Shown: piece after piece, positions 28,175 through 41,213 of the stretch | How the letters are laid out: each line of letters begins with the position of its first letter | Position numbering within the stretch: position 1 is the first letter of the stretch | Assembly: GCA_014192065.1 (NCBI GenBank) | Contig: BJHH01000003.1 | Coordinates: 312,751-354,011, forward strand | Reading direction: 5' to 3' | Length of the DNA stretch: 41,261 nucleotides | From: Gemmatimonadota bacterium | Lineage (GTDB): Bacteria > Gemmatimonadota > Gemmatimonadetes > Gemmatimonadales > Gemmatimonadaceae | Notes under the pieces: generated by a model | What the model saw: only the letters and a program-made list of their open reading frames with translations | The model's database searches: none | What the model was told of the DNA's origin: nothing | Position numbers and translations under genes: made by a program

Positions 28175-30685
28175 GTGTCTCGGCGCCTAGGACCGTCTCC
28201 CGTCACTATCGTACTCGCGGCCGCAGTCCTAACGGGCACGCTGTACGTCGGTGCGCGCCCGGTCGGCGGCGCGCCGGCATTTGGGCCCCTGCTCGACCCG
28301 GTGCACGGCGTCTGGGCGCTCGCGCGAACGGCGACACCTCCGGCTGACGCCACCGTCCAGATCCCGTCGCTCGCTGACCTGGTCGAGGTCCGCTTCGACG
28401 ATCGCGGAGTGCCCCACATTTTTGCCACGTCGCTGACCGACGCCGCCCGCGCTATGGGATACGTGCACGCGCGCGATCGGCTGTTTCAGATGGAGCTACA
28501 GGCTCGGGCAGTGGCCGGCACGGTCGCCGAACTCGTCGGCGACCGCGCAGTCGCCGTCGACCGCGAAGCGCGCGCGCAGGGACTCGCGGCATTTGCCCGC
28601 CGCGGATACGAAGCCCTCGGCCCGCAGTCGGCCGGACGCACGCTCACCGAGGCGTACGCGCAGGGGGTGAACGCCTACATCGACGCGATGACGGACGACG
28701 ACATCCCGTTCGAGTTCAGGCTGCTTGGCGCGCGACCGCAGCGGTGGGAGCCAGTGTACACGGCATACCTGTTCGCGCGGATGGGACTCACGCTCGCCTA
28801 TTCCGAAGGCGAACTACGACGGGGCGCGATTGAGGCGTTGGTCGGTCGCGACGCCGCGGACGCGCTCTTCCCGCGCGACAATCCGATCCAGGAACCGATC
28901 CAACCCAACGGCCAGCACGCGGCGCGAATGGACTTCCGGAAGGTTCCTCCGCCGGCCCAACCTGATTCGGGCAAGTTAAAAATCGCGATGTCGTTACTGG
29001 AATCGGCGCGCACGCTGGCCGGAGCCGCGAACGAAGCACAACTCGACGATGTGGCGGTGGGCAGCAACAACTGGGCCGTGTCGCCACGACGCACGGCGGC
29101 GGGCAAGGCGCTACTGGCCGGCGACCCGCACCTCGCACTCACGCTGCCATCCATCTGGTACCAAGCGCAGATCGTCGTGCCCGACACGCTCGATGTGTAT
29201 GGCGTCACAATTCCCGGTGCGCCGATTCCGCCCATCGGATTCAATCGTGACGTGGCCTGGTCCGAGACCAACACAGGCGCCGATGTCGCCGATTATTTCG
29301 TCGAGACGGTTGACGATTCCACGCATCCAACGCGTTACCAAGTGGATGGCGCGTGGCGCGCACTCACGTATCGCGTTGAAGCGATTCGCGGCAAGGGCGG
29401 CCGTGTGATAAGCACCGACACGATCAGGGAATCGCATCGCGGATCAATGTTGCACGCCGGCGGCCAGTGGATTTCGCGTCGGTGGACCATCAATGATGGT
29501 GACGACATCACCGGGCCGTTCCTCGGTGCCGCACGGTCGAAGTCGGTCAAGGAACTCTGGGAAGCGACGAATGGCTTCTTCGCTCCGGCGCAGAACTTCG
29601 TCTCCGCGGATCGCGGCGGCCACATCGCCATTCGCTCAACCGGCCACTTCCCGATTCGCGGCAGGGGCGCTGTGCGCGGAGACCTGCTGCTCGACGGATC
29701 GAAGAGCGCCAGTGACTGGCAGGGATGGTGGAAGCTCGCAGAGTATCCGCAGGCCTACGATCCGCCGCAAGGCTTCGTCGTGTCGGCGAACCAACAGCCA
29801 AAAGATCCGCGGGTCGATCCACGCTACATCGGCTGGGACTGGCCGTCGCCATGGCGTGCGATACGCATCAACGAGATGCTGCGCGCCGATTCGGCCATCA
29901 CGCCCGATGCGATGCGTCGCATCCAGACCACGCCGGTGAGCGCGCAGACGAAGTACTTCCTGCCGATGATGGTGGAGGCCGACGCTACCGGCCGCGATTC
30001 GTCGTTCTCGAATGCGTCACGCCTGCTCCGCGACTGGGACGGCACATTTGACGCGGACAACAGGGCGGCCGTGTTGTACGAAACGACGCTCGCCGAACTC
30101 GCCGCGCGCACGTGGGATGAACTGCGTGCCGGTGGGACAGCCGGCGAACCGCTCCCACGTCGGGTGGACACACCGCAGAATGTGGTCCTGCTCCAACTCA
30201 TGCAGGATCCAACGAACCCGTGGTGGGATGACCAGCGGACGCCGGACGTCCGCGAGCGACGCGACGACATCATCCGGGCGAGTGTATTGGCCGCGTATCG
30301 CACACTCGTGCAACGCCTCGGCCAGCCGGGCGACATGTGGCGTTGGGGGCTCAACCGCCGCGCGTCGGTGCGGCACCTAGGCGGTATTGCCGCGCTGGGC
30401 CGTCCGAACGTGCCGGTCACTGGCGGCCCAGGATCGGTGAGCCCCTCTTCTGGTGATGGCAACCACGGAGCGAGTTGGCGCATGGTCGTCGAGTTGGGCG
30501 ATGAAGTCCGCGGCTGGGGCGTCTACCCTGGCGGCCAGTCGGGGAACCCTATCAGTCCACGCTACACCGACCTACTCGACAAGTGGAGCGCGGGCACGCT
30601 CGACTCACTCCCTTTCCCCCGCACCGCCGCCGATCTCCCGACAGCGAAGACATCGTCGCGGCTCCTATTGAAGAAGGCGCCATGA
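28175..30685 (+). CDS. penicillin acylase-family amidase, exported
   Basis: This is an 836-residue Ntn-hydrolase precursor of the S45 family, which hydrolyses amide bonds such as acyl-homoserine lactones, N-acyl amino acids or beta-lactam side chains. Residues about 9-28 form a signal or anchor helix. The alpha-chain motif GYVHARDRLFQMEL (95-108) is present. The self-processing site is DVAVGSNNWAV, with Ser297 as the new N-terminal nucleophile of the beta chain, followed by AGKALLAGDPHLALTLPSIWY. GDGNHGASWRMVVELGD near the C-terminus is also typical. The start is GTG. Its stop overlaps the next gene as ATGA. Substrate preference cannot be read; quorum quenching is one possibility. Confidence 0.92.
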   Translation: MSRRLGPSPVTIVLAAAVLTGTLYVGARPVGGAPAFGPLLDPVHGVWALARTATPPADATVQIPSLADLVEVRFDDRGVPHIFATSLTDAARAMGYVHARDRLFQMELQARAVAGTVAELVGDRAVAVDREARAQGLAAFARRGYEALGPQSAGRTLTEAYAQGVNAYIDAMTDDDIPFEFRLLGARPQRWEPVYTAYLFARMGLTLAYSEGELRRGAIEALVGRDAADALFPRDNPIQEPIQPNGQHAARMDFRKVPPPAQPDSGKLKIAMSLLESARTLAGAANEAQLDDVAVGSNNWAVSPRRTAAGKALLAGDPHLALTLPSIWYQAQIVVPDTLDVYGVTIPGAPIPPIGFNRDVAWSETNTGADVADYFVETVDDSTHPTRYQVDGAWRALTYRVEAIRGKGGRVISTDTIRESHRGSMLHAGGQWISRRWTINDGDDITGPFLGAARSKSVKELWEATNGFFAPAQNFVSADRGGHIAIRSTGHFPIRGRGAVRGDLLLDGSKSASDWQGWWKLAEYPQAYDPPQGFVVSANQQPKDPRVDPRYIGWDWPSPWRAIRINEMLRADSAITPDAMRRIQTTPVSAQTKYFLPMMVEADATGRDSSFSNASRLLRDWDGTFDADNRAAVLYETTLAELAARTWDELRAGGTAGEPLPRRVDTPQNVVLLQLMQDPTNPWWDDQRTPDVRERRDDIIRASVLAAYRTLVQRLGQPGDMWRWGLNRRASVRHLGGIAALGRPNVPVTGGPGSVSPSSGDGNHGASWRMVVELGDEVRGWGVYPGGQSGNPISPRYTDLLDKWSAGTLDSLPFPRTAADLPTAKTSSRLLLKKAP

Positions 30686-33342: not shown

Positions 33343-34320
33343 CTAGTAGCGATCCAGGTCCTTCGCGCTGACCACTAGGCCAGCAAATGTTGCCCGGACC
33401 TCACGCAGGAGTTGCGCATCGGAGGCGCCGAAGAAGAGCTGGTGCGTCAGCACGAGCATCTTGGCGCGGGCCTTGGTCGCCACCCGGCCAACCGCCGTGC
33501 CGCCTGTATGCGCCGCCGCGTGATACGGCTGACGCGCGGCCGGAACAGTCGTGAAACCGGAGTCAGAAAAAACTTCGTGGATCAGCAGGTCGCAGCCGTC
33601 GCAGGCCTGCGCCACGGCGTCCGACTCGCGCGTGTCGCCAGAAATCACGATCGAGCGGTCCGGCGTGTCGATGCGATAGCCGTAGGCGTTCGGCCACTCG
33701 CTATGCGGCACCTGGAACGCCCGGACCCTGATGCGCGAATCGCGGAACACCTCACCCGCTGCCACCTCGTGCACCTGCGCCTTCCATCCATCGCGTGACG
33801 GCCCGCCCGGCGACGCCACACGCTCGGCGATGTCCTCGGCATTGCCGTCGAGGACCGTCTGCACGAGATAGTGCAGACCGAAAGGACCGTAGATATTCAC
33901 CGGCTCGCGCTTTCCCTGAATCCAGGGCGTGAAGATCGCGTCGGCGAGGCCCATGGTGTGGTCGGAATGCAGGTGCGTGATGAAGATCGCTTCGAACCGC
34001 GGATTCGGCTGCGCACCCGGGTTGGGTGCGTTGAAGGCGGAGATGCCCGCCTTGCCCGCCTTGCCCGCCTTGCCAGCCGCCGACGCGCGACGCACGACGC
34101 CGACACCGGCGTCAAAGAGATAGGCAATGGAGTCGACCACGATCGCCACCGACGGGCCCGCGCGGTCCGGGTCGGGGATCGGGCTGCCGGTACCGAGCAT
34201 CACGACGGTGGTACGCGACGTCCCCTGCGCTGGCACCGCGACGATCGGCACCGCGACGATCGGCACCGCGACAGCGCACAATGCTACTGCGTAACCGCGA
34301 AGAGTCACAGAAAACCGCAC
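33343..34320 (-). CDS. periplasmic metallo-beta-lactamase-fold hydrolase
   Basis: This is a 325-residue RNase Z/arylsulfatase-like member of the MBL superfamily. The zinc motif is THLHSDHTMGL (His116, His118, Asp120, His121), with VMLGTGSPIPDPDRAGP at the start of the fold and ISGDTRESD and VLTHQLF further on. A signal peptide (about 1-33) indicates export, so it is unlikely to process tRNA. GTG 34320 was chosen because GAGG lies 5 nt upstream; a TTG at 34347 is the alternative. Two internal repeats are odd: the signal peptide contains a duplicated IVAVP unit, and residues 82-92 contain three GKA units encoded by 9-bp repeats. The substrate is unknown. Confidence 0.82.
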   Translation of the reverse strand: MRFSVTLRGYAVALCAVAVPIVAVPIVAVPAQGTSRTTVVMLGTGSPIPDPDRAGPSVAIVVDSIAYLFDAGVGVVRRASAAGKAGKAGKAGISAFNAPNPGAQPNPRFEAIFITHLHSDHTMGLADAIFTPWIQGKREPVNIYGPFGLHYLVQTVLDGNAEDIAERVASPGGPSRDGWKAQVHEVAAGEVFRDSRIRVRAFQVPHSEWPNAYGYRIDTPDRSIVISGDTRESDAVAQACDGCDLLIHEVFSDSGFTTVPAARQPYHAAAHTGGTAVGRVATKARAKMLVLTHQLFFGASDAQLLREVRATFAGLVVSAKDLDRY

Positions 34321-34386: not shown

Positions 34387-37300
34387 CTATGGCTTTCGCG
34401 CGATTTCCTTTTCCAGCTCGGCCAGTGCGGCCTTCGCCGTTGCCAGCAGCGCGCGCTGTGTTCCGGTCGGTGCCTGCAGACCACCGTGGCGAGCACCATT
34501 GCCGTTCCACTGACCAGCCAGCCCGCCGAGCGCCGCGGCCGGCCCACCGCCGCCCCGACCACCGCGTCCGCCACGTCCGGCCGCTGGCGCGCCGACCGGA
34601 ATGCCAACCTTCTGACCGAGCGCCGTCAGCCGCGTCGCGTCAGCACCAGTCGCCGCCGCGAGCCGCGCGCGAAAGGCCGTCGTGGCCGCCTCGAGTTTCG
34701 CCTGTACCTCTTGGGCTTCGAGCAAGAACGCTTCACGCGCCTTGTGATCGGCAAGCGTTTCCATCAACGCGGGATCGGCACGTACTTCGAACGTACGGGT
34801 TTGCTTCTCGCCATCTACTTCCATCGTCACCGTGTAGGTACCCGGCGAGACGTAGAAGCCGCGTGCGCCGATGTTGTGCGCAGGGATCGGGATTGTGACG
34901 CGCGGTGGCCCACCGGCCCGCCCGCCCTGTCCGCCTGCACCGCCTGCCCGGCCGCCCCGACCGCCCGCTGCTGCCGGAGGAGGCGTCATGCCGCCGGCGC
35001 CGCTCGGCGGCTCGTCTTCACCACCACCACTTCCGCCACCGCCGGAAGCCGGCGCATACCGTAGGTCCCAGTTCACGCGATGCACGGTGCCCGCCGTCAT
35101 CGGACCGGACAGTTCACGAATCACACGGTTCGTGGCATTCGTCACGGTGAACTTGACGAGTTGCGCCGGCCGCGAGAGGTGATAGCTCAACACGGCGCCT
35201 TCAACCGGATTTTCCGCAGCGTAGATCCCTTGCGCGGCGGTGGACACGTCGGCCCAGTAGTTGATAATCGTCGCAGGCCGAACGGTGAAGAGGTGCGCCT
35301 TTTTTGCCGCGACCGCATCGGTCCACTCGGCGAACGGGCTCGCGTCGTCCAGCACCCAGATGGCACGACCATGCGTGCCAAACACGATGTCCTTGGTGCG
35401 CGGATGGACGATGATGTCGTCATAGCGCGTGGTCGGCAGGTTCGACGCGAGCCGCGACCACTTGGCACCGCTGTCGGTCGTGAAGAAGACATGCCGCTCA
35501 GTTCCAGCGAACAACACGTTCGCCTTGCCGGGATACTCAGCGATACTGCGCACTGGCGCGTCGCTGGGCAGTCCGGTGGACACACGCTTCCACGACTTGC
35601 CGAAGTCCGTGGTGCGGAAGATGTACGGCGTGAAATCACCGATCCGGTGATTGTCGAACGTCACGAACGCGGTACCGCGCGATGCGCCGGATGCGATGAC
35701 GCGATCGACGAAGCTGCCGTTCGCCACGCCGGCGATGGCGCCGCTCAGTTCGTTCCAACTCTTTCCCCCGTCCTGCGACAGCTGCACGTTGCCGTCGTCG
35801 GTACCGACCCAGAGCACGAGCGGATCGATCGGCGACTCGGCCATCGCGGTGATTTCGCTGTAGTTCGACTCGCCGTCGTTCCGGGAGAGACGAATGTCGG
35901 TATTGAGCACGCCGGCTAGGCGGAGCGTGTCCCGATTGACCTTGCGCGTCAGATCGGCGGTCGCGGTCCAGGTGGAGCCGAAGTTTTTCGAGATCAGCAA
36001 CTTGTTGGCACCGAGATACACGGTGCCCGCGGCGTGCGTCGACGCGACGATCGGCGCGGTCCAGTCAAAGCGATACGACTCGCCCGGAGGGGCCACTGGC
36101 TGGATCTCATACCGGTCGCCCGTCTCGGCATCCACGCGGGTGAGACTGCCGCCGCTCGACGTCGAGTACACGTAGCGGTGACCCTTTTTGTCCACCGCCT
36201 GGCCAGTACCATCGCTGAAGCCAATCTGCTTCCAATCGCTATTCAGGATGCCGAGCCAGTGGTTCGTGGCGCTCGGCCCCATCCACGAGTGCGCGTCCTG
36301 CAAGCCACCATAGATGAAGTAGGGATCGCGGTTGTCCACGGCGATCCGGTAGAACTGCGCGATCGCGAAGCCATTGAGCCGGTTGTAGGTGTAGCCGAGG
36401 TCCCAGCTCTCGTGCAATCCGCCGTCGCCGCCGAGGAGCAGATGGCGACTGTCTCGCGGGTCAACCCAGAGCACGTGATGATCGTCTTTGAGCCCGAGGT
36501 CGTAGGTTGGCGCATTCGGCATCTGATCGAACGTTGTGCCGCCATCCTCGCTCTTCATCGGCTGCACGCCCATCAGCCAGACGCGCTGGTCGGTCGTGGG
36601 ATCGATGAACGGATGACTGTAATACATCGGGCGCGGGTTGCTGCTGCTCGTGCGTCGCCAGTTTGCACCGGCATCGTCGGAGCGATAGAGGCCCGAGCCG
36701 GTCTGATGCTCGACCGTCGCGATCACCACGTTCGGATTCGACTTCGCCACGGCGATGCCGATTCTGCCTTTTTCGCCGGCCGGAATCCCGTTCTCGATCT
36801 TCCGCCACGTTGCCCCGCCATCGGTCGACTTCCAGAGCGCACTGCCCGGGCCGCCGCCGTTGAATCCATACACCGTGCGGAGCCGCTGGTACGTGGACGC
36901 ATAGAGCACGTTGGGATCGCGCGGGTCCATCGCGACCTCGTTCGCGCCGGTGAGCGAATCTACATACAGCGACTTCGTCCACGTGCGCCCTGCATCCGTG
37001 GTCTTGAACACGCCGCGCTCGGCGTTCGGTTTCCAAAGATTTCCGACCGCAGCGACCCACGCGACGTTCGGATCGATAGGGTGCAGCAGCACGCGTCCAA
37101 TGCTGCCCGATGCTTTCAGCCCAATGAACGACCAGGTCGCACCGGCGTCCGTGGAGCGGTACACGCCCCCGCCCCACGACGAGCTCTGCCGGTTGTTCTG
37201 CTCACCCGTGCCGGCCCAGACGATTCGCGAGTCACCGCCAAAGATCGCGATGTCACCGAAGGTGTTATCTGGCTGACCATCGAAGATGGGCGCCCAGGTG

Positions 37301-37512
37301 GTGCCCTTGTTCGTGGTTTTCCACATCCCGCCGGCTGCGGCGCCGATGTAAATGATGGACGGATCGCGCGGGTCCACCTCGACGTCGTGGATGCGACCAC
37401 CCATCACGGCGGGCCCGACAGACCGGACGTGCAGCGCATCGAAGGGTGACTGGGCGACCAGCGGCGCGCTGGAGAGTAGCGCGAGGGAGAGCGAAATCAG
37501 TGGACGACGCAC
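34387..37512 (-). CDS. secreted Asp-box/sortilin-type beta-propeller protein
   Basis: This is a 1041-residue exported protein. A GTG at 37512 starts a signal peptide (RRPLISLSLALLSSAPLVAQ). The body is built of BNR/Asp-box repeats (S/T-x-D-x-G-x-T-W); at least eight are visible, including MWKTTNKGTTW, VYRSTDAGATW, VFKTTDAGRTW, LWKSTDGGATW, LYRSDDAGANW, QLSQDGGKSW, IFRTTDFGKSW and FFTTDSGAKW. This is the pattern of VPS10/sortilin-like and glycosidase-like propellers. A Gly/Pro-rich linker follows, then a small beta-domain (YTVTMEVDG) and a helical C-terminus with a second Gly-rich run. Catalytic residues are not identifiable. Such proteins are abundant in Gemmatimonadota-like genomes as putative glycosyl hydrolases, but binding could be the real role. 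Confidence 0.8.
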   Translation of the reverse strand: MRRPLISLSLALLSSAPLVAQSPFDALHVRSVGPAVMGGRIHDVEVDPRDPSIIYIGAAAGGMWKTTNKGTTWAPIFDGQPDNTFGDIAIFGGDSRIVWAGTGEQNNRQSSSWGGGVYRSTDAGATWSFIGLKASGSIGRVLLHPIDPNVAWVAAVGNLWKPNAERGVFKTTDAGRTWTKSLYVDSLTGANEVAMDPRDPNVLYASTYQRLRTVYGFNGGGPGSALWKSTDGGATWRKIENGIPAGEKGRIGIAVAKSNPNVVIATVEHQTGSGLYRSDDAGANWRRTSSSNPRPMYYSHPFIDPTTDQRVWLMGVQPMKSEDGGTTFDQMPNAPTYDLGLKDDHHVLWVDPRDSRHLLLGGDGGLHESWDLGYTYNRLNGFAIAQFYRIAVDNRDPYFIYGGLQDAHSWMGPSATNHWLGILNSDWKQIGFSDGTGQAVDKKGHRYVYSTSSGGSLTRVDAETGDRYEIQPVAPPGESYRFDWTAPIVASTHAAGTVYLGANKLLISKNFGSTWTATADLTRKVNRDTLRLAGVLNTDIRLSRNDGESNYSEITAMAESPIDPLVLWVGTDDGNVQLSQDGGKSWNELSGAIAGVANGSFVDRVIASGASRGTAFVTFDNHRIGDFTPYIFRTTDFGKSWKRVSTGLPSDAPVRSIAEYPGKANVLFAGTERHVFFTTDSGAKWSRLASNLPTTRYDDIIVHPRTKDIVFGTHGRAIWVLDDASPFAEWTDAVAAKKAHLFTVRPATIINYWADVSTAAQGIYAAENPVEGAVLSYHLSRPAQLVKFTVTNATNRVIRELSGPMTAGTVHRVNWDLRYAPASGGGGSGGGEDEPPSGAGGMTPPPAAAGGRGGRAGGAGGQGGRAGGPPRVTIPIPAHNIGARGFYVSPGTYTVTMEVDGEKQTRTFEVRADPALMETLADHKAREAFLLEAQEVQAKLEAATTAFRARLAAATGADATRLTALGQKVGIPVGAPAAGRGGRGGRGGGGPAAALGGLAGQWNGNGARHGGLQAPTGTQRALLATAKAALAELEKEIARKP

Positions 37513-37663: not shown

Positions 37664-38806
37664 ATGAACCCCCCGGCACAATCAGGTCGCACCACCCACG
37701 ACAGGCCGATCGTCGTCTGGGTGCTCGTGCCGGCCGTCGAGACCACTGACGCCACGCTCGACTATTACTACGACTTCAGTGCGGGTCGCGCTGAATTCGA
37801 ACGGGCATTCGCCGCCCTCGAGACAGACTGGCGCTGGGAGCCGGTGACCACAACAACGTTCCGCACCGTGATTGACCGGATCGTCGCCGAGTCCGCGACG
37901 CAGACACCGCTTGTGTTCAACCTCTGCGATGGGGACGAGATCAACGCCGTCCCCGGCATCTCGGTGATCCGGTACCTCAATGCCGTCGGGCTTCGCTACA
38001 CCGGCTCGGACGAACACTTTTATCAGATCACCACGTCGAAGATCGACATGAAGCGCGCGTTCGAGCGCGCCGGTGTGCCGACCCCGCCGTGGGAGGCGCT
38101 GGCGCAGGGCGCCACGCTCGACGGGCTCTTCGAACGGCACGGTCGGCCACTCATTGTGAAGCCGGCGGTCTCGGCTGGCAGCATGGGCATCACGATCCAG
38201 TCGGTCGTGCACACGGACGATGCGCTCGCCGAGCAGCTGCAACTGCTACACGACGGCTACCACGGCTGGAACCTCGCCGACGGTGGCGTGTTCGTGGAGC
38301 GGTACATCGTTGGCCCAGAGTTCACCACGTTCATTGTCGGTTCGTCGGACTCGGCGGACTCCAGCACCATCTATCCGCCGGTCGAACGCGTTTTTCACGC
38401 GGCGCTCCCGCCGAACGAGCAGTTCCTCTCGTTCGACCGGTTGTGGGAAGTGCACGAGAAGGAATCGCCGATGGCCGATGGCGCCTCGCTCTGGGAATAC
38501 CAGCCGGCAGCCGCCGAGCTGCAGCAGCAGATCTCCGACATCAGCTGGGCCGCGTACGCGTCGGTCGGCGGCCAAGGCTATGGTCGTGTGGATCTGAGGA
38601 TGGACGCGGCGACCGGCGACCTCTACGTGCTCGAAGTCAACGCGCAGTGCGGGCTCTCAGAAGACGAGAACTACACCTCGATCGGTGCGATCCTCCGGTT
38701 TGCCGAACGGCCGTTCCACGGACTGCTACGCGAGATCATGGATTGCGCGGCGCCCGCACCGCGCTCGCGCGTCGTCGCCGACACCAGCGCCAGGATGCCC
38801 GCATGA
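37664..38806 (+). CDS. D-Ala-D-Ala ligase-like ATP-grasp enzyme
   Basis: This is a 380-residue ATP-grasp protein, related to D-alanine-D-alanine ligase and to amino-acid or peptide ligases. Visible parts are the N-terminal substrate domain with VFNLCDGDEINAVPGISVIR (84-103) and YTGSDEHFYQITTSKIDMK (112-130), the ATP lysine in LIVKPAVSAGSMGI (Lys166), the adenine-clasp strand FVERYIVGPEFTTFIVG (Glu212), and the metal ligands GYGRVDLRM (Asp310) and YVLEVNAQCGLS (Glu324, Asn326). The usual NTLPG after the metal ligands is replaced by NAQCG, so it is not a standard cell-wall ligase. Carboxylate and amine substrates are unknown. It is clearly paralogous to the next gene, whose ATG overlaps its stop. 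The 151-bp divergent gap shares regulation with the propeller gene. Confidence 0.88.
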   Translation: MNPPAQSGRTTHDRPIVVWVLVPAVETTDATLDYYYDFSAGRAEFERAFAALETDWRWEPVTTTTFRTVIDRIVAESATQTPLVFNLCDGDEINAVPGISVIRYLNAVGLRYTGSDEHFYQITTSKIDMKRAFERAGVPTPPWEALAQGATLDGLFERHGRPLIVKPAVSAGSMGITIQSVVHTDDALAEQLQLLHDGYHGWNLADGGVFVERYIVGPEFTTFIVGSSDSADSSTIYPPVERVFHAALPPNEQFLSFDRLWEVHEKESPMADGASLWEYQPAAAELQQQISDISWAAYASVGGQGYGRVDLRMDAATGDLYVLEVNAQCGLSEDENYTSIGAILRFAERPFHGLLREIMDCAAPAPRSRVVADTSARMPA

Positions 38807-40230
38807 AGATCTGTGTTCTGCAGCCCGACTATTCGGCGTCGGACGTGGACTACGGCACGTGGGATCCGTATCGCGACCTGACCACGATCCTCGCGGGCCA
38901 CACCGTCGATCATGTGAAACTCGACAAGCGATTCACCTTTCGCGACCTCAAGGCGCTGTCGACGCAGGGCTACGACTGCTTTCTCAATCTCTGCGAAGGC
39001 TACCCCGAGTGGGACGTACCGGGCATCGACGTCATCGATGCGCTCGAGCGGCTGAATCTTCCCTTTACCGGCCCGTCGTCTACCTACTACGACGTACCGA
39101 AGACGCTGATGAAGTACGTCGCGTACGCCGCAGGGGTCCGCACGCCGAAATACCTGTTGGCCACTACCGACCAACCGGTGGATCTGGTCGCGGCCGACCT
39201 GGCGTTTCCGCTCTTTGTGAAGGCGGCGCACGCGGGCGACAGCCGCGGCATTGACGCGCGGTCGCTCGTCCGCGATCGCGAATCACTCGATCGGCAGGTG
39301 GCCGCGATGCACGCCGAGTTCCGCGACGTGTTGGTTGAGGAATACATCGAAGGACGCGAACTGACGGTGCTTATCGTTGCGAGTCCAGACGAGCGCGGCG
39401 ACCCGATTGCGCTCACGCCGGTCGAGTACGTCTTCCCCACTCCCATCAAGTACAAGACCTACGCCAACAAGACGTCCGAGCTGCACCCCAACGCCAACAT
39501 CCCCGTGCACGATGCGGCGCTCGCCGCGCGGGTACGGGATGCGGCGATGCAGGTGTTTCGCGGCTTCGAGGCCGTGGGCTACGGTCGGATGGATTTTCGC
39601 GTGGACGCGGCCGACAACATCTACTTTCTCGAAGTCAACTTCACCTGCTCGGTATTTTACGCTGGCGGGTACGAAGGGTCTGCCGACTACATCCTCAAGT
39701 ACGACCCACTGGGCCAAAGCGGGTTCGCTGAGCGGATCATCGCCGAGGGCATCGCGCGGCACCGTCGCCGTCAGAAGGCGTACGCCGTGCGCGGCAACGC
39801 CATCGCCGGCTACGGGATCTTCGCGACGCGGAACATCAGCGCCGGCGATGTCGTGTTCGTCGGCGAAGGGCGTGCAAACCGCATCGTCACCCAACGCCAC
39901 GTGCACACCAGCTGGCGCACAGAGGACCAAAAGATCTTCCGGCAGTACGCCTACCCGCTCAGCGACGACGTCTTCATGCTCTGGGAGACGGACCCCATGG
40001 CCTGGGCGCCGCAGAACCATTCGTGCGATCCGAACACGGCGTTTGATGGACTGAACGTCGTCGCCCGGCGGTCGATTCCGAAGGACACCGAGTTGACGCT
40101 CGACTACGGTGCGTTTCTGAGCGACCGGAGTGAGCCATTCACCTGCCATTGCACGGCGGCGAACTGCCGGGGCATGATCGTGGGAACCCAAGGCAACTCG
40201 GTTACCGCACGCGAGCGCACGCGGCAATAA
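38803..40230 (+). CDS. ATP-grasp ligase fused to SET-domain methyltransferase
   Basis: This is a 475-residue two-domain protein. Residues 1-315 repeat the layout of the preceding ligase: FLNLCEGYPEWDVPGIDVID (60-79), FTGPSSTYYDVPKTLMK (88-104), ATP lysine Lys140 in FVKAAHAGDS, VEEYIEGRELTV (Glu180), GRMDFRV (Asp264) and YFLEVNFTCS (Glu277, Asn279). Residues about 325-458 are a full SET domain: GYGIFATRNISAGDVV (336-351), the pseudoknot NHSCDPN (405-411), the catalytic tyrosine in ELTLDYG (Tyr435), and a post-SET CxCxxxxC (Cys448, Cys450, Cys455), which with Cys408 can bind zinc. SET enzymes transfer methyl groups from S-adenosylmethionine to lysines. The fusion suggests one product is both ligated and methylated. 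ATG 38803 overlaps the previous stop as ATGA. Confidence 0.9.
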   Translation: MKICVLQPDYSASDVDYGTWDPYRDLTTILAGHTVDHVKLDKRFTFRDLKALSTQGYDCFLNLCEGYPEWDVPGIDVIDALERLNLPFTGPSSTYYDVPKTLMKYVAYAAGVRTPKYLLATTDQPVDLVAADLAFPLFVKAAHAGDSRGIDARSLVRDRESLDRQVAAMHAEFRDVLVEEYIEGRELTVLIVASPDERGDPIALTPVEYVFPTPIKYKTYANKTSELHPNANIPVHDAALAARVRDAAMQVFRGFEAVGYGRMDFRVDAADNIYFLEVNFTCSVFYAGGYEGSADYILKYDPLGQSGFAERIIAEGIARHRRRQKAYAVRGNAIAGYGIFATRNISAGDVVFVGEGRANRIVTQRHVHTSWRTEDQKIFRQYAYPLSDDVFMLWETDPMAWAPQNHSCDPNTAFDGLNVVARRSIPKDTELTLDYGAFLSDRSEPFTCHCTAANCRGMIVGTQGNSVTARERTRQ

Positions 40231-40418: not shown

Positions 40419-41213
40419 TTAGGGCTTGTCGGTTTCGCTGACCGCGCACTGCCAGATGATCACGCCGAAGCCGATCTTGTTCACGAAGTCGGCCAGATTG
40501 TAGACGACGTTCAGCACGTTGGCCGAGTTGGCAGCGGGCCCACCGGTCAGGTAGCCGAGGAAGTAACCAAGCGGGTAGATGGCCCAGCCGATCAGCACGA
40601 TGTTGCGCATGAGCTTGAAGGCGGACTGCACTGCGGGGGTCGCAGACTCGGCGTTGATCTTGCTGGCTTCGCCAAAGTAGATCTCGTAGATGATGCAGAC
40701 CCAGCCGGCCATGCCGATGATGAAGGCGGGCCAAGCACCCATGAGGCCGGCTTCACCGAGGTAACCGCCGACGAGCATCACCAGGGTACCGATGATCAGG
40801 CGCCAGAACACGCCGCCCGGGACCTTGGTCACGGCGGAGAGGATGATGTAGAACTCGACCATCAGAAGGGGCACGGTGATGAGCCAGTCGATGTAACGGA
40901 AGACCGTAGGGGTCGCGCCGGTGGCCACCCAGACCTCGCGCATGTAGAAGTAGTGCGTCGCGGCGACGAGGGTCACGAGGCCGGAGACGGTCAACGAGGT
41001 CTTCCACTTCGGCGCGACGCGCTGGATTTCCAGGAAGAAGAAGGCGGTCGCGGCGACGAGCGCCATCGAGATGACCCAGAAGGTCACTCCGACAAGGTCG
41101 TCGGCCCTAAGATTCGGCTCGCTGGCGGCGGCCATCGCATGGGTCGGAGTGAACAGGCTAAGGGCAAACAAGGCGCCTGACTTAACCACGGAGGATTTTA
41201 GTGATGTGATCAT
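40419..41213 (-). CDS. proteorhodopsin, light-driven proton pump
   Basis: This is a 264-residue microbial rhodopsin with a signal peptide (about 1-29) and seven helices. Helix C reads RYIDWLITVPLLMVEFY: Asp109 (Schiff-base counter-ion), Thr113 and Glu120 (proton donor) form the DTE triad of proton-pumping proteorhodopsins. His87 corresponds to the conserved His75 of marine proteorhodopsin. Leu117, at the spectral-tuning site 105, predicts green absorption. Lys246 in NLADFVNKIGFG binds retinal. Phe164 aligns with Phe152 of marine proteorhodopsin, so the small residue (Gly) that opens a fenestration for a carotenoid antenna is absent. No retinal or carotenoid genes are in the window. The pump would supply proton motive force for the transhydrogenase and TonB systems. 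The upstream region is cut off by the window end. Confidence 0.96.
   Translation of the reverse strand: MITSLKSSVVKSGALFALSLFTPTHAMAAASEPNLRADDLVGVTFWVISMALVAATAFFFLEIQRVAPKWKTSLTVSGLVTLVAATHYFYMREVWVATGATPTVFRYIDWLITVPLLMVEFYIILSAVTKVPGGVFWRLIIGTLVMLVGGYLGEAGLMGAWPAFIIGMAGWVCIIYEIYFGEASKINAESATPAVQSAFKLMRNIVLIGWAIYPLGYFLGYLTGGPAANSANVLNVVYNLADFVNKIGFGVIIWQCAVSETDKP

Follow-up and report, generated by a model that had tools for sequence, protein, structure and literature searches.

The window is a 41,261-nucleotide stretch of DNA at the end of contig C3 in a 2.45-Mb, 97.75% complete genome whose relatives are Gemmatimonadota MAGs. Two genes on its forward strand encode ATP-grasp ligases. The first (P1; window positions 37664–38806, +) encodes a 380 amino acid Ddl-fold ligase, assigned from its match to Dala_Dala_lig_C (PF07478, 54 bits), its predicted fold, and its ATP-site residues. 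The second (P2; 38803–40230, +) encodes a 475 amino acid protein in which an ATP-grasp ligase (PF07478, 71 bits) is fused to a SET/post-SET methyltransferase (PF00856, 43 bits over residues 336–436, with the model complete from 1 to 105). P1 is a lone ATP-grasp domain. In P2, the SET domain and a cluster of post-SET Cys residues come after the ATP-grasp domain, which extends to approximately residue 320. The start codon of P1 is uncertain, as homolog starts vary slightly and a clear ribosome-binding site is absent before position 37664.

The stop codon of P1 lies over the start codon of P2 in an ATGA overlap (38803–38806, +). The identical 4-nt overlap is found in 24 of 25 P1-P2 pairs, although two of these loci share one contig, making the independent cases slightly fewer. 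This coupling bears out the earlier proposal that the two ligases are produced together. The gene coordinates, the overlap, and the domain calls of the preliminary description were all correct on recheck.

Immediately past P2 and in the opposite orientation, a microbial rhodopsin gene (Bac_rhodopsin, 160.6 bits; 40419–41213, −) sits at the contig end. Upstream of the pair are genes for a penicillin amidase-family enzyme (28301–30685, +), a metallo-beta-lactamase-fold protein (33343–34266, −), and a Sortilin/Vps10-like repeat protein (34387–37404, −). A search for plasmid carriage found no match, and PADLOC models for anti-phage defense gave none at E<0.01.

Distribution and origin of the pair

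P2-type fusions were found in 27 of 295 sampled genomes of the class, in four further relatives, and in Acidobacteriota; phyla outside Gemmatimonadota and Acidobacteriota were covered by one pattern-based scan. Genes in relatives were called using a simple codon-model script rather than a standard annotator. Full-length P2 homologs share 54–65% identity within the same family and 36–40% in other families, and those of Acidobacteriota share 48–50% and 36–39%. A search for the same two-domain architecture, as recommended in the preliminary description, thus recovered full-length fusions in many genomes of two phyla. These homologs rule out a frameshift, merged gene, or assembly artifact as the source of the fusion.

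The fusions fall into two clades. Clade A comprises those of Gemmatimonadaceae and a few Acidobacteriota, with P1 directly upstream of P2 at nearly all loci. Clade B fusions, which are 36–40% identical, stand alone without P1. Flanking genes vary, so the conserved unit is the P1-P2 pair itself. For one close homolog pair, dN/dS is ~0.11 in the ligase part and ~0.13 in the SET part; therefore, both halves of P2 are maintained by purifying selection. MAG assemblies are possibly misleading at contig ends. An example is L047, where the tail of a second, nearly L048-like fusion and its ABC_membrane_3 gene (L047:4258–5789) lie inverted at the contig end; this may be a true second copy or an assembly chimera.

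In a tree of 84 ATP-grasp domains, P1 and P2 form sister clades with 99% SH-aLRT support (by a quick method), apart from Ddl and from the other tandem ATP-grasps of the phylum. This placement fits the suggestion that the two arose by duplication. SET-less P2 forms nest at two places within the P2 clade, so the fusion is ancestral to P2 and the SET domain was lost at least two times. SET-less P2-type ATP-grasps of ~325 aa from Acidobacteriota (L153–L158) are nested within the fusion clade. A separate conserved Gemmatimonadota cluster (L160–L172) encodes an FAD oxidase, ThyX, two Ddl-like ATP-grasps, a GNAT protein, and a lysine 2,3-aminomutase-like radical SAM enzyme. Membership of P1 and P2 in this tandem ATP-grasp cluster was ruled out, as they belong to a different clade.

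Ligase domains

ATP-grasp residues were checked in an alignment numbered on E. coli DdlB. The equivalents of K97, K144, E180, E187, R255, D257, E270, and N272 are all invariant in P1 (24 homologs) and in clade A P2, and the sole departures in clade B P2 are Arg at K97 and a single Ser at N272. The ATP site, whose possible loss the preliminary description had raised, is therefore intact. The Pro three residues after Asn272 is replaced by Cys in both proteins. In P1, this is Cys329 of the loop NAQCG after the metal ligands (residues 326–330; 38639–38653, +), which is Cys in 24/24 homologs. In P2, it is Cys282 of NFTCS (residues 279–283; 39637–39651, +), which is Cys in 24/24 clade A, 16/17 clade B, and 7/7 SET-less P2 sequences. 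The altered, Cys-containing loop seen at the outset is thus a constant feature of P1 and an almost constant one of P2. Since the Pro is retained in every Ddl and every other tandem ATP-grasp sampled, the loop Cys is a hallmark of the P1/P2 family.

The D-Ala pocket loop of Ddl (EGSSVG, K215/Y216, and the Pro after Asn) is absent as such in both proteins. The corresponding positions are S170/A171/G172, Leu260, and Cys329 in P1 and A144/G145/D146, a retained Lys223, and Cys282 in P2; the equivalent of the carboxylate-binding Lys215 is present in P2 and absent from P1. An AF2 model of P1 (pLDDT 78) shows a full Ddl fold, with a TMt of ~0.8 to Ddl structures.

Membership in the Ddl superfamily raises a role in the cell wall, in which the pair would make a modified dipeptide for peptidoglycan, like Van-type ligases; wall genes (murA, murQ-type) are indeed located upstream in L140. 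However, P1 and P2 score 78.9 and 84 bits against Ddl family models and do not reach the cut-off of 243, their substrate-loop residues differ, their distribution is patchy, and vanH/vanX-like neighbors were not seen. The window genome also encodes a canonical Ddl elsewhere, so the pair is not the wall enzyme. We consider a wall variant very improbable.

SET domain

The SET core of P2 (residues 336–435; 39808–40107, +) contains GYG (residues 336–338), YAYP, WAPQNHSC (NHSC at residues 405–408, nt 40015–40026), and LTLDY, which ends in Tyr435. The post-SET zinc site CHC(x4)C (40144–40173, +) provides Cys448, Cys450, and Cys455, with Cys408 as the fourth ligand. The GxG, NHxC, catalytic Tyr, and post-SET zinc Cys of histone-type SET lysine methyltransferases are all present. 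Among 30 intact homologs, Trp401, Pro403, His406, Asp434, and the four zinc-site Cys are invariant, and Asn405 is kept in 28. Position 435 is Tyr in 25 homologs and Phe in five (L049, L050, L055, L056, and L060). The motifs first read from the window (NHSC, catalytic Tyr, and CxCxxxxC) are therefore confirmed in P2 and conserved among its homologs. In an AF2 model of P2 built from a seven-sequence alignment, the SET half is of low confidence.

The best phmmer match of the fused SET is MLL1. A 48-row SET tree has three separate groups: the fused SETs (98/94), BurB with free SETs (96/81, with BurB entered only as an 85-residue fragment), and trithorax-type SETs with MLL1 (100/100). The tree is unrooted with these three groups only, and sister relations among them are not given by it. 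The fused SET forms a branch of its own, next to the BurB-like bacterial SETs and outside the chromatin/trithorax branch, and therefore gives no reason to expect a histone-like substrate. The initial likening of this domain to chromatin methyltransferases did not hold at this level, and a trithorax origin of the fused SET is unsupported by its separate grouping.

BurB, a lone bacterial SET protein, is an S-methyltransferase that methylates free methionine, and its Y124F variant retains >60% activity (PMC12542666). In an alignment with BurB (PDB 9l4t), His406 of P2 corresponds to the SAM-contacting His93 and Tyr435 to Tyr124. The SET half could have the same function, with the ligases using S-methylmethionine. 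The Phe at position 435 in five of 30 homologs is consistent with such a role, as are the BurB-like free SETs within operons of relatives. However, the fused SET groups apart from BurB, has a longer SET-I insert, and carries the YAYP motif, which is missing from BurB. We regard a methionine S-methyltransferase as unlikely.

Operons and neighbors in relatives

In L053, P1 and P2 are followed by an ABC_membrane_3 protein (PF13748) and a free BurB-like SET, with an ATGA overlap at every junction. PF13748 proteins also adjoin P2 in L047, L048, and L060. In Acidobacteriota, L008 is ordered as a free SET, an ABC exporter, two ligases, and a P2 with a degenerate SET, and L139 as an ABC exporter, P2, an AlaDh/PNT-family dehydrogenase, and a free SET. 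L144, also of Acidobacteriota, has two lone SETs and two P2 proteins, one of which is extended at its C-terminus by a BurB-like SET. Membrane transport proteins, of two kinds and in two phyla, therefore recur near P2, as do further SETs. In L142, a clade B fusion is divergent from a related exporter. For most Gemmatimonadota pairs, an exporter is not adjacent. The L144 locus (L144:7968–11844) holds five SET domains in total, with one protein arranged as ATP-grasp-SET-SET.

In L008, NHSC and the zinc Cys are missing from the fused SET, and the free SET in the same operon is intact and matches BurB at 7e-14. In L009, the fused SET is lost. These cases, together with the SET-less Acidobacteriota forms, would suit a SET that binds or regulates but transfers no methyl group. 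Such a role has been reported for TTLL12, a protein with TTL ATP-grasp-like and SET-like domains that is reported to be inactive (PMC3520985). Against this, P2 of the window and 30 homologs retain the SAM- and zinc-site residues, the domain is under purifying selection, and the degenerate L008 copy is accompanied by its intact free SET. A non-catalytic SET in P2 therefore seems improbable to us.

No precursor or carrier ORF beside the pair is conserved across loci. The only small ORFs recurring there are P1’s own N-terminus and a secreted 146-aa protein in part of one lineage. A graspetide (RiPP) ligase reading was ruled out, as a conserved precursor-peptide gene was not found near the pair. 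The same result counts against methylation of a carrier protein, one of the targets proposed in the preliminary description; the remaining candidates for the target are a free small molecule and a distant protein. Neighbors from lysine metabolism include DapD in L140 and L141, LysA near L008, carboxynorspermidine genes in L127, and the AlaDh/PNT-family enzyme in L139; in these few genomes, they are suggestive of a conserved link to lysine metabolism. The L127 region (L127:2422–8026) encodes a SET protein beside an ABC exporter whose C-terminal region resembles a cyclic-nucleotide-binding domain, as well as carboxynorspermidine synthase and decarboxylase, and is possibly a methylated polyamine cluster.

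Proposed function

SET domains are generally regarded as protein lysine methyltransferases, and to our knowledge, BurB is the exception among them. A protein target is the main rival to a small-molecule one: the ligases would add one or more amino acids to a protein in a RimK- or TTL-like manner, and the SET would methylate a lysine of that protein or of the added residue. This agrees with the usual SET target, with the best sequence match being MLL1, a protein lysine methyltransferase, and with TTLL12, the sole ATP-grasp and SET protein found in the literature searched, belonging to a protein-ligating family (PMC3520985). However, P1 shows the complete Ddl fold and not a RimK/TTL match, a target gene is not conserved beside the pair, and the operons are shared with transporter proteins and BurB-like SETs. 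On balance, we find protein modification doubtful.

We instead favor a small-molecule product. The complete Ddl fold of P1 is that of enzymes joining free amino acids, the operons of some relatives contain transporters and SETs resembling BurB, which acts on free Met, and a conserved precursor or carrier ORF is missing beside the pair; each of these points to a small molecule. P1 and P2 would be coupled Ddl-superfamily carboxylate-amine ligases that catalyze successive ATP-dependent steps, and their product would be a small amino-acid conjugate, likely di- or tripeptide-like. With SAM as donor, the SET domain of P2 would methylate a nucleophile, located either on one building block or on the product. 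The most plausible acceptors are a side-chain amine, in a residue resembling Lys or Orn, and the Met sulfur as with BurB. In some relatives, the ABC transporter of the same operon may export the product. The direct evidence consists of the motifs, the selection on both halves of P2, and the gene order; from these, the small-molecule target, the sequence of steps, and export are inferred. Taken together, we give this two-ligase pathway to a methylated and, in some lineages, exported conjugate roughly even chances. The exporter-less Gemmatimonadota pairs, clade B without P1, the MLL1 best match, and the position of the SET outside the BurB branch all count against it.

More broadly, and tentatively, the pair could represent a new type of small-molecule pathway, shared by Gemmatimonadota and Acidobacteriota, whose ligase has a built-in SET that methylates the amino-acid building block or the ligated product; some lineages would use several SETs per pathway and ABC export. 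If true, SET domains act as tailoring enzymes of small-molecule pathways, and the conserved ligase-SET fusion points to an undescribed metabolite. P2 would also be a tractable protein for studying the evolution of SET substrate choice, whether small molecules preceded protein tails as substrates or followed them.

Comparison with known systems

As the preliminary description supposed, no described system matching a ligase pair with a fused SET was found in the literature searched. TTLL12, the only published case there with both kinds of domain in one protein, is eukaryotic, has the reverse domain order, and lacks key residues. Ddl shares its fold, its ATP/Mg site, and its family domain (PF07478) with P1 and P2, but the pair falls far under the Ddl cut-offs, has the loop Cys and an altered substrate loop, and in P2 adds a SET domain. 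Like the pair, the L160–L172 cluster has two adjoining Ddl-like ligases, accompanied by an enzyme that modifies lysine or an amine; unlike it, its ligases belong to another clade and keep the loop Pro, and a SET is absent.

For the SET domain, MLL1/KMT2A and the trithorax-type bacterial SETs have the GxG, NHSC, Tyr, and post-SET zinc motifs in common with P2. They differ in forming a separate branch (100/100), and the fused SET has a shorter stretch from NHSC to the next strand and no chromatin context. BurB is likewise a bacterial SET with post-SET Cys, but it stands alone as a protein of 172 aa without a ligase domain, its SET-I segment is shorter, and it belongs to another branch.
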